From Nitrospirales bacterium (GTDB lineage: Bacteria > Nitrospirota > Nitrospiria > Nitrospirales > UBA8639): a stretch of DNA of 64,000 nucleotides. The notes below the pieces were generated by a model. That model saw nothing but the letters and a program-made list of their open reading frames with translations, was not told the DNA's origin and did not search any database. The position numbers and the translations under genes are program-made. Below, one piece after another: positions 13,933 through 60,121 of this stretch (positions are counted from its first letter, which is position 1; the number at the start of each line of letters is the position of its first letter). The stretch spans positions 62,001-126,000 of the forward strand of contig BQIU01000002.1 in NCBI GenBank assembly GCA_021603905.1. Reading direction: 5' to 3'.

Positions 13933-15501
13933 TTAACGGTCTACGGATAACCTAGGTAGCCCTGTGGTCGACGGCGAACCCATGGGAGCCGTGCGGCCGG
14001 GCAACGCGGTCTCCACCTGTTCTTTGGCCACGATCACTTGAAGCCGATCCAATGTCAGCCTGGCCGTTTGAAGTATGGGGTGCGGATACAATCCCCACCA
14101 CGTTTGTATGATGATCATGGCTCCCAACAACACCAGAGAGCGCCTGGACAAGTCGGGAATCTGCCAGCCGTTGATGTTGGGGCCATGGAATGTCCGTTGC
14201 ATCAACGTCAATGAATAAATGGCCGCTGCGACGATACCGAGGGTCGCAAGTGCGGCTAATGGAATATTCACTCTATAGGTTCCCAAGAGTATAAGGAATT
14301 CGCCAATAAAATTCCCGAGTCCTGGTATACCCAAGGACGCCATCACAAAAAACATGGTGATTCCTGCAAGCTTCGGAACGATATCCCAAAGTCCACCCAT
14401 TTCGTTCATGTCTCGCGTATGCAGTCGTTCTTGAAGAGCCCCAGCCAGCAAAAATAACGCCCCAGTACTAATGCCATGGGCTAGCATTTGCATAATGGTT
14501 CCCTGAAGAGCTTGACTGTTCCAGGCAAAGATACCAAGCAGCACAAAGCCCAGGTGCGCGATACTACTATACGCGATGAGCCGCTTAAGATCTGTTTGAG
14601 CAAAGGCCATCATCGCCCCATACAAAATCCCAACCACACCAAGCCCCATGACCATCGGGGCGACCGTCTGTGCGGCATCAGGAAACAGTGGAACGGCAAA
14701 CCGCAAAAGCCCGTATCCTCCAGTTTTTAACAGCAATCCGGCAAGAATCACACTTCCTCCTGTCGGCGCTTCCGTATGTGCATCAGGGAGCCAGGTGTGC
14801 AATGGAACCACTGGCAGCTTGACCGCAAAGGCGGCAAAAAATCCAGCAAACATCCAGAGTTGAGTGGATGGAGGCAGCGTAAGCTGTAAGAGGTGAAAAT
14901 AATCGAAGGTGATGAATTCATGTTGATGATAATGGGCAATGCCCACAGCCAAAATCGAAATGAGCATGAGCAGTCCGCCGGCTTGGGTAAAGAGAAAAAA
15001 CTTCAAGGCCGCATAGGCCCGATGTTCATGCCCCCAAATACTGATGAGTAAATACATCGGGACCAGCATCATCTCCCAGAATACAAAAAACAGAAAAAGA
15101 TCTAGTGAAACAAAAACACCCACAACACCAGTCAACACCCAGAGGAGATTGAAGTGAAAAAATCCGACTCGCTGGGTGATTTCCGTCCAAGAGGCTATGA
15201 CCGCCGTGATGCCTAAGAAACTGGTCAAGAGAATCAGCAGAAGACTGAGTCCGTCGGCACCGACATGAAATTGAATGCCAAACCGTGAAATCCACGGGAC
15301 ACTGAGCTTTGCGAACCACACGCCATATTCAGAAAGAAACCGATGCTCTGGTCCGATCAACCAGAGTCCGAGGCCGATACCGAGAGAGATGAGGAGGGTA
15401 ATAAGGGCAATCCAGCGTGGCCAATAGGCTCCCCACCGTTCTGACAGCCAGGCCAACAGACCACCCAGGAGAAGAATCCCTAATAAAATCGTCAGTATCA
15501 T
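13933..15501 (-). CDS. nuoM: NADH-quinone oxidoreductase subunit M
   Basis: A 522-residue antiporter-like complex I subunit. The conserved glutamate helix (FFVFWEMMLVPMYLLI) and the proton-channel segment AVKLPVVPLHTWLPDAHTEAPTGGSVILAG are intact. The start at 15501 (MILTILLG) overlaps the nuoL stop as ATGA, so translation is coupled; the longer ORF in the track is an artefact. There is one nuoM copy here, not the two tandem copies found in some complex I clusters of nitrite oxidisers. Confidence 0.93.
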   Translation of the reverse strand: MILTILLGILLLGGLLAWLSERWGAYWPRWIALITLLISLGIGLGLWLIGPEHRFLSEYGVWFAKLSVPWISRFGIQFHVGADGLSLLLILLTSFLGITAVIASWTEITQRVGFFHFNLLWVLTGVVGVFVSLDLFLFFVFWEMMLVPMYLLISIWGHEHRAYAALKFFLFTQAGGLLMLISILAVGIAHYHQHEFITFDYFHLLQLTLPPSTQLWMFAGFFAAFAVKLPVVPLHTWLPDAHTEAPTGGSVILAGLLLKTGGYGLLRFAVPLFPDAAQTVAPMVMGLGVVGILYGAMMAFAQTDLKRLIAYSSIAHLGFVLLGIFAWNSQALQGTIMQMLAHGISTGALFLLAGALQERLHTRDMNEMGGLWDIVPKLAGITMFFVMASLGIPGLGNFIGEFLILLGTYRVNIPLAALATLGIVAAAIYSLTLMQRTFHGPNINGWQIPDLSRRSLVLLGAMIIIQTWWGLYPHPILQTARLTLDRLQVIVAKEQVETALPGRTAPMGSPSTTGLPRLSVDR

Positions 15502-36471: not shown

Positions 36472-36939
36472 ATGACACATGCAGCCGTCAAGGATATTGC
36501 GAAAGATTTATCCCAAGAGTTCCCGCGTAGTCCGCGGGAACTCTTGGGAGGATATGTGATCGCCGCTCGAACATTGGATAAATGTCGGGCCGTGCTCAAT
36601 CACTCTCAAGGAGAATACAAATTTAATTGTCCATTAGATCAAAGATTTTTTGAATTCACCGGCATTAACGCCGAAGAATTTAAAATCTTCGTGGAGTCTG
36701 GTGCCTCTGACGATGAGGTGATCTCTTGGATTTCCCAGCATGCGACATCACGACCACGGATTGAGATCATCAAATGGAATAATCAGCTCCGAGGAATGCG
36801 TATTGGTGAATTACCGGATGATGCTCAAGAATTTTTAGAAGATTATATTCCCCAACATGTTCCCTCGAATAGACCTGTCTACTGTTGGTTTGATGTCTAT
36901 GACTTGGAAGAACAACGGTTAACCGCCACTCCTGCGTAG
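36472..36939 (+). CDS. DUF5069 family protein
   Basis: A 155-residue soluble protein with the DUF5069 start pattern (FPRSPRELLGGYVIAARTLDKCRA) and a later ESGASDDEVISWI segment. The function of the family is unknown. Codons 14-26 of this gene form a perfect 17-bp DNA/RNA hairpin (see the repeat at 36511). The gene lies 55 bases after the PRC-barrel gene and may be co-transcribed with it. Confidence 0.75.
   Translation: MTHAAVKDIAKDLSQEFPRSPRELLGGYVIAARTLDKCRAVLNHSQGEYKFNCPLDQRFFEFTGINAEEFKIFVESGASDDEVISWISQHATSRPRIEIIKWNNQLRGMRIGELPDDAQEFLEDYIPQHVPSNRPVYCWFDVYDLEEQRLTATPA
36511..36549. repeat. Perfect 17-bp inverted repeat inside the DUF5069 coding region
   Basis: TCCCAAGAGTTCCCGCG and its exact complement CGCGGGAACTCTTGGGA are separated by five bases (TAGTC). 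The stem starts 39 bases after the ATG. In mRNA it would be a very stable hairpin in the path of early elongating ribosomes. Confidence 0.9.
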
Positions 36940-58319: not shown

Positions 58320-59738
58320 ATGTTTACTCAAGACCTATGGGCTAGATCACTTATGCTAGCAGGCATACCGCTATTAGCCTTACCACTCATCGCGCAAGCA
58401 GGTTCGTCCAGAGATCACTCAGATCGCAGTGGATCTCAGGGCTCGTATTCCCAGGAGAAAGAAAAAGTTGTACGGGGAGAATTTATGCGTAAGGATGGAG
58501 ATCAAATCACCATACGGTCGCGGGACGGCCGTAAGACCTCCTTTAAAATCAATAATCAGACAAACCAACTGTGTCCAAACAGTTCAAGTTCCCAATCGGG
58601 ACAGTCATCTCAAGGATCTTCGATGAGCCAAGGATCTTCGATGTCTTCTTCGGGGACCAGCGGGCAAAGCTCGTCAGAGGATTCTGAAACGCAGGGATTT
58701 ACATTTGGTGATTGCAATTTCCAGAATGGAGATTCTATCAAAGCTAAAATTAATCAAGAGGGTAATGCCACCTATGTACGATCGATGGGATATCGCGGCG
58801 AAGATGATCGTTTCGAGGCAGGCCGATCGGGAGAAGATTATTTTGTATTGCCCGCGGGTCAATTAGGCGGACTGGATATTTCCGATAAAGATGCAAAATA
58901 TACCGTCAAAACAAAAAATGGACAGGAAGTTGGTCATATTTACCGACTTGTGAATAACAACCAAGGTGAGCCTTCTTATGCCATCGTTCGAAAGACTGAC
59001 GGGCAACTCATCTCAGTGCCTTGGCAAGCTATGGAAGGTCAGGGAAATAAAACATTTAAGCTCAATGTGTCAAAAACACAATTGGGCGATCTTCCAATCC
59101 TAGAAGAAGGGGAAGACACCGCTCAACACGTAGAGCAACATTGGAACTTAAATGAAGATTTTTACGAGGATCGTGAGCAGGCTTATAGAGCCACTCTTTC
59201 CCCCGGGGATCGCGGAGATTCTCGAGATCGAAGAGGACGAGAATCTGCCTATGATTATGACGATCAACGCGCCTATCGAGGGTGGTTTGCTGGCCAAGAC
59301 AGAATTCAGGATCAACACATGAATCAGCCGGAACGCTATCGCGGCAATGCTCGTGAATTTCGTCAACGTTCATGGTCCGATCGTTACTCCCCTCAAGGAC
59401 GTACAAATCAATCGCGGGATCGAAGAGATCGGCAGCAGGGATCTGAATCCGCGTATAATTATGAAGATCAAGAGGCATTTAAAGGACGGCATGCCGGCCA
59501 AGACAGGATTCGAGATCGTCACATGAATCAGCCAGAACGCTATCGTTCGTCAGATCGTGATTCCCGGGATCGTTATTCCGACGATTCGCGAAATCGAAGA
59601 AGTCAACGGTCCGTGTTCTCTCAAAGTCGAGATTGGCTGGACGATGATTCTGGTAACACATATGAACGTTACCGTGAACGCCGTTCTTCAGATGACAACA
59701 GAGATTACGATCCGAGACCAAGTCGTTATCACCCATAA
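58320..59738 (+). CDS. Secreted PRC-barrel protein with a serine-rich linker and an RD-rich repeat tail
   Basis: A 472-residue protein with a signal peptide (LMLAGIPLLALPLIAQAG). A small beta domain follows (VVRGEFMRKDGDQITIRSRDGRKTSF), then a Ser/Gln-rich linker with repeats (SQGSSMSQGSSM, around 100). A PRC-barrel lies at about 180-265 (LDISDKDAKYTVKTKNGQEVGHIY; LISVPWQAM). The last 170 residues are rich in Arg, Asp, Ser and Tyr and hold two copies of about 33 residues (SAYDYDDQRAYRGWFAGQDRI and SAYNYEDQEAFKGRHAGQDRI, each ending HMNQPERYR). This suggests an extracytoplasmic, partly disordered protein that binds surfaces or ions. AAAGGAGG precedes the ATG. Confidence 0.75.
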   Translation: MFTQDLWARSLMLAGIPLLALPLIAQAGSSRDHSDRSGSQGSYSQEKEKVVRGEFMRKDGDQITIRSRDGRKTSFKINNQTNQLCPNSSSSQSGQSSQGSSMSQGSSMSSSGTSGQSSSEDSETQGFTFGDCNFQNGDSIKAKINQEGNATYVRSMGYRGEDDRFEAGRSGEDYFVLPAGQLGGLDISDKDAKYTVKTKNGQEVGHIYRLVNNNQGEPSYAIVRKTDGQLISVPWQAMEGQGNKTFKLNVSKTQLGDLPILEEGEDTAQHVEQHWNLNEDFYEDREQAYRATLSPGDRGDSRDRRGRESAYDYDDQRAYRGWFAGQDRIQDQHMNQPERYRGNAREFRQRSWSDRYSPQGRTNQSRDRRDRQQGSESAYNYEDQEAFKGRHAGQDRIRDRHMNQPERYRSSDRDSRDRYSDDSRNRRSQRSVFSQSRDWLDDDSGNTYERYRERRSSDDNRDYDPRPSRYHP

Positions 59739-59748
59739 TTAAACCAAA

Positions 59749-59782
59749 TAGACCTCTAAGCCTTTAGAGGCTTAGAGGTCTA
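59749..59782 (+). terminator. Terminator-like hairpin after the RD-rich protein gene
   Basis: A perfect 14-bp stem (TAGACCTCTAAGCC / GGCTTAGAGGTCTA) with a six-base loop starts 11 bases after the stop codon. Only a short T-rich stretch follows. Confidence 0.75.
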
Positions 59783-59806
59783 TCTTTAGCGGAAGAGGAA
59801 AGCTTC

Positions 59807-60121
59807 ATGACAAGATTTCTATTTGTGACAGCAACGTGCTTGTTCTTTTCTGCCGGAGGGACTCCAAGTTTTGGAATAGATTCTGACAGACATCATCAAA
59901 TTCAGGAGTCTCAAGAATCCTCAAATTTCCATACACAACAAGGTACAGACTCATCGATAGATACAGAATCCTCGTCAACCAACTCTAAACAAATTGAGCG
60001 ACAAAGAAAATTAAGACCTGGTGATGCAGGCAAAAAAGGCGTGACGTCAGTCTTCGGTGGTCACCGAACAGGGTCGCCAGCGACAAGAAATAGCGGTGCG
60101 AACAAACAACCAAATCAATAG
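59807..60121 (+). CDS. Small secreted hydrophilic protein
   Basis: A 104-residue protein with a signal peptide (MTRFLFVTATCLFFSAGGTPSFG) followed by a low-complexity, Ser/Gln/Thr-rich body and a basic tail (KQIERQRKLRPGDAGKKG). No domain recognised. GGAAG lies upstream of the ATG. It sits 25 bases after the terminator hairpin of the RD-rich gene, so it may get transcripts only by readthrough or from its own promoter. Function unknown. Confidence 0.55.
   Translation: MTRFLFVTATCLFFSAGGTPSFGIDSDRHHQIQESQESSNFHTQQGTDSSIDTESSSTNSKQIERQRKLRPGDAGKKGVTSVFGGHRTGSPATRNSGANKQPNQ

Follow-up and report, generated by a model that had tools for sequence, protein, structure and literature searches.

Palindromic DNA within bacterial protein-coding genes is exemplified by the Rickettsia palindromic elements, which are inserted and repeated. 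In E. coli, quasipalindromes are turned by template switching into inverted repeats that are perfect or closer to perfect (PMC7202029), and template switching can yield perfect hairpins in one event (PMC8794818). In genes of S. cerevisiae, template switching gave rise to perfect inverted repeats with arms of 7-16 bp, together with neighbouring amino-acid replacements such as T38V/S39H (PMC8604942). Palindromes have also been described in the mitochondrial coding sequences of Nematomorpha (PMC6649704).

Here, we describe a perfect hairpin located within a DUF5069 gene of a Nitrospirales bacterium. The gene lies in a window of 64,000 nucleotides (contig BQIU01000002.1, positions 62,001 to 126,000), which is the whole stretch of DNA analysed and the one to which our coordinates refer. 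It is carried by the + strand (36472..36939) and its ORF encodes a protein of 155 aa, residues 15-149 of which cover the PF16798 profile entirely (1-133 of 133) with a score of 132.9 bits against a cut-off of 27 (E=1e-38). The protein is thus a member of the DUF5069 family with a whole domain, and its start is at the same position in the nearest relative (L003). The 5' arm of the hairpin, TCCCAAGAGTTCCCGCG (36511..36527, + strand), spans codons S14, Q15, E16, F17, P18 and R19 and is the exact reverse complement of the 3' arm, CGCGGGAACTCTTGGGA (36533..36549, + strand), which runs from the end of P21 through R22, E23, L24, L25 and G26. The 17 bp are 100% complementary and are separated by a 5-nt loop, TAGTC (36528..36532, + strand), while the reading frame across the hairpin encodes SQEFPRSPRELLGG. 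Counting from the A of the ATG (36472), the stem starts 39 nt downstream. Taken alone, it has a predicted folding energy of -33.7 kcal/mol (z -10.3 compared to shuffles), and it is the dominant structure in the predicted fold of the surrounding 181 nt. These results confirm the coordinates and complementarity of the hairpin as reported in an earlier note on this DNA, as well as its claim that the gene is intact.

Like the Rickettsia palindromic elements, this palindrome resides in a bacterial protein-coding gene, but it is single-copy and shows no insertion relative to the DUF5069 family. No second copy of the palindrome (up to 3 mismatches) or of a single arm (up to 2 mismatches) was found elsewhere in the 4.7-Mb assembly. 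The locus resembles the products of quasipalindrome correction in E. coli, studied with 18-bp reporters, as a short in-gene inverted repeat of similar arm length that would have been perfected, although the event is read here from distant relatives only (PMC7202029). It also resembles the strain-specific repeats of S. cerevisiae as a perfect coding inverted repeat with amino-acid replacements in one arm; the yeast repeats have arms of up to 16 bp and were placed on terminal branches of the strain tree, whereas the hairpin described here has 17 bp and cannot be placed in this way (PMC8604942). As in the Nematomorpha mitochondrial palindromes, both arms encode conserved protein sequence, but those palindromes are numerous per genome and reach 284 bp, compared to one of 17 bp in 1.26 Mb here (PMC6649704).

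DUF5069 orthologs and paralogs were gathered from 60 near relatives, 236 genomes of the order, a 396-genome sample of the phylum and GTDB contigs. The comparison set consisted of 95 relatives that share the protein motif, at 35-69% protein identity, in which the homologous 42 nt were compared. None of the 95 carried the stem. Complementary positions averaged 6.61 of 17, against 6.67 expected from synonymous resampling at the GC3 of each gene, and ranged from 3 to 10 owing to the FPRSPRE motif. The nearest relative, which belongs to the same family and shares 68-69% protein identity, exhibited 9 scattered matches, with the innermost pair alone matching before the first break. The 11-bp core of the palindrome, allowing at most one mismatch, was found in no other of the 396 phylum genomes. 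Furthermore, the DUF5069 gene was the sole match between the gene neighbourhood described here and that of the nearest relative, and a search for plasmid and viral relatives returned none. The arm region aligned to relatives at equal length which, together with its single copy, argues against a dispersed palindromic element of the RPE or REP type. Compensatory synonymous changes keeping the stem, as would be seen in a conserved structured RNA or cis-regulatory element, had been suggested as a check by the earlier note; among the 95 relatives we observed the same protein without the stem, and complementarity at the synonymous-codon expectation. This is the outcome that the note had named as a refutation, and as far as conservation is concerned it refutes a functional stem. 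The most likely origin of the hairpin is an accident of mutation specific to this lineage, and not conservation of a control element.

The two arms pair codon to codon. S14 (TCC) faces G26 (GGA), Q15 (CAA) faces L25 (TTG) and E16 (GAG) faces L24 (CTC); further inside, F17 (TTC) faces E23 (GAA), P18 (CCG) faces R22 (CGG), and R19 (CG within the arm) faces the end of P21 (CG). Residue frequencies computed over 72 closer relatives revealed a conservation of 99-100% for P18, R19, S20, P21 and R22, and of 89% for E23. Because these conserved residues allow complementary codons, the motif amounts to a standing quasipalindrome, and partial complementarity at the site is indeed present in the relatives. 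The consensus of the family is matched by L25 (99%) and G26 (81%) in the 3' arm but not by S14 (3%) or Q15 (1%) in the 5' arm. L24, also in the 3' arm, was found in 1% of these relatives. Within the conserved block of residues 10-32, only residues 14, 15 and 24 occur at 4% or less, and all three lie within the arms. The S14-Q15 codons TCC CAA are the reverse complement of TTG GGA, the codons of L25-G26. Atypical residues in one arm, consensus residues in the other and the complementarity of their codons together point to the 3' arm having been copied onto the 5' arm, a direction for which the residue pattern is suggestive only. The earlier view that the symmetry comes from codon choice is supported, with a few residues also carrying it.

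The perfection and uniqueness of the stem, the lack of it in relatives, its codon register and the odd residues inside its arms lead us to infer that replication template switching in this lineage probably homogenised a quasipalindrome into a hairpin without function. In the DUF5069 motif F/Y-P-R-S-P-R-E..L-G, the two halves of the DNA can pair codon by codon, which makes the site a latent quasipalindrome. During replication, the polymerase most likely switched to the opposite arm as its template, with the sequence of the 3' arm probably being transferred to the 5' arm; this would have homogenised the arms into a perfect 17-bp inverted repeat. The same copying would have turned residues 14-15 into S-Q (TTG GGA to TCC CAA, from the L25-G26 codons), a change that the protein presumably tolerates, given the variability of positions 14-16 among family members.

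Several observations count against such a template switch. The unusual L24 is not explained by copying from the 3' to the 5' arm and calls for at least one further substitution. Odd residues at positions 14 and 24 also carry little weight as evidence, since both positions vary across the family. Moreover, the nearest ortholog is only 68-69% identical in protein, so that synonymous sites are saturated and too distant to reconstruct the ancestral DNA or the mutational step. At the genome scale, we counted 180 coding inverted repeats with arms of at least 8 bp in this genome versus 129 after synonymous shuffling (sd 14), while mirror repeats showed no excess in its coding sequence (132 vs 126 shuffled). 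A genome of the same genus (G003) deviated in the same direction (57 vs 42 shuffled, sd 5). This modest excess in the two genomes is consistent with a template-switch process, but it is missing from the coding sequence of another genome, G015 (41 vs 45 shuffled), and it could reflect selection on mRNA structure instead.

Could the stem have arisen purely by chance codon choice on a palindrome-prone peptide, with no homogenising event? The peptide by itself permits the stem and lowers the bar for it because the conserved F-P-R-S-P-R-E is semi-palindromic in DNA, giving relatives 6-10 matches of 17 by default, and rare events are expected somewhere when many windows are screened. However, when the codons of this fixed peptide were resampled from the genome's own usage, 2 of 2,000,000 draws yielded the 17-bp stem in this register, which corresponds to a chance of ~1e-6 given the peptide. 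In a ~0.92-Mb sample of the genome's coding sequence, made up of 799 ORFs with 150 codons or more, the second-longest perfect coding hairpin with a loop of 3-12 nt had arms of 13 bp, and no other 17-bp coding hairpin was found in the 1.26 Mb sampled. Ten replicates of synonymous shuffling of the 0.63-Mb set that holds the DUF5069 gene produced no arm of 13 bp or more; extrapolating from the shuffle count at arms of at least 8 bp, with a fourfold drop for each added base, ~3e-4 such stems would be expected in that set. The stem exceeds plain coincidence, even though it was picked from a screen over many windows, in agreement with the earlier assessment that it is very unlikely by chance, and we regard the coincidence as an unlikely explanation. 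It is very unlikely that the fold-back sequence gave rise to an artefact during assembly or amplification. The assembly is fragmented (203 contigs) with a contamination estimate of 7.5%, and polymerases also switch template in vitro, but neither the reading frame nor the family motif is interrupted by a gap in either arm, and the stem lies well within a 134-kb contig.

The stem could alternatively be a recent, lineage-specific RNA control element at codons 14-26 that slows elongation, is cleaved by an RNase III-type activity, or influences the shape of the mRNA between the PRC-barrel gene upstream and the cytochrome/molybdopterin operon downstream. A very stable predicted stem placed early in the gene, and improbable by point mutation, would fit such a role, which nevertheless appears doubtful to us given that no relative keeps the stem. 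It lacks a T-rich tail, a terminator call and an Rfam match, and the nearest relative does not share the flanking genes, so that no conserved operon depends on it. Furthermore, the usual translation-initiation footprint ends before +40, where the stem begins, and such stems are unwound by ribosomes during translation. Expression may be mildly affected, in which case the effect would be lineage-specific. We consider it quite improbable that one template switch in the conserved motif created a regulatory hairpin that was then recruited in this lineage to control DUF5069 expression; if so, a single mutation would have provided a protein change and an RNA switch together. The attenuator suggested earlier found no support, as no intrinsic terminator was called at the stem on either strand; the sequence continues with GGATATGTG on the + strand and TAAATCTTTCG on the - strand, with no T-rich tract. 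The sole Rfam signal was a sub-threshold STnc560 hit (17 bits vs a cut-off of 55) located elsewhere on the other strand. A palindromic DNA-binding site embedded in the gene is highly improbable: its dyad symmetry is perfect, but palindrome and arm are both single-copy in the 4.7-Mb assembly at the mismatch levels given above, which leaves the proposed protein-binding site without a second copy, and the arms span 39 bp in codon register instead of forming two short half-sites. Overall, the functional roles put forward for the hairpin (translation brake, RNase site, attenuator, operator) are unsupported, with the stem missing in 95 of 95 relatives.

A masked internal start was also considered at the in-frame GTG at 36556 (V29), which has a GGAGG 4 nt upstream (36547-36551), partly within the 3' arm. 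This candidate was rejected because its product would lose the conserved motif. The GGAGG resembles an internal ribosome-binding site but is dictated by the conserved Gly-Gly-Tyr-Val codons.

Two further perfect hairpins were observed in this genome. One, with arms of 16 bp and a 4-nt loop (ATAGACCTCTAAGCCT/AGGCTTAGAGGTCTAT, 59748-59783), is located in the same window just past the stop of the ORF at 58320-59738 and before the ATG of the ORF at 59807-60121; its intergenic position suggests that it is likely a transcript-end or processing structure. The other, with arms of 17 bp and a 7-nt loop (TTAGTATGAAGCTCCTA), lies at 14825-14865 of another locus (L102) and is not spanned by any ORF. The genome also contains a second, partial DUF5069 gene (L097, G000:C163:1-1200) of a type present in other genomes of the order. 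This stretch is 93-95% identical to the start of a contig of a same-genus genome (L098), except for ~125 bases inside the DUF5069 gene that are present in L098 and missing in L097, a gap that reflects a deletion, a mis-assembly or contamination.

If the stem arose by template switching as we propose, the DUF5069 gene illustrates cleanly, in a natural setting, how the DNA behind a conserved peptide motif can be predisposed to become a perfect palindrome, and a long in-gene hairpin need not imply regulation. It also raises a question that can be measured, namely whether homogenisation of inverted repeats leaves amino-acid footprints across bacterial genes.
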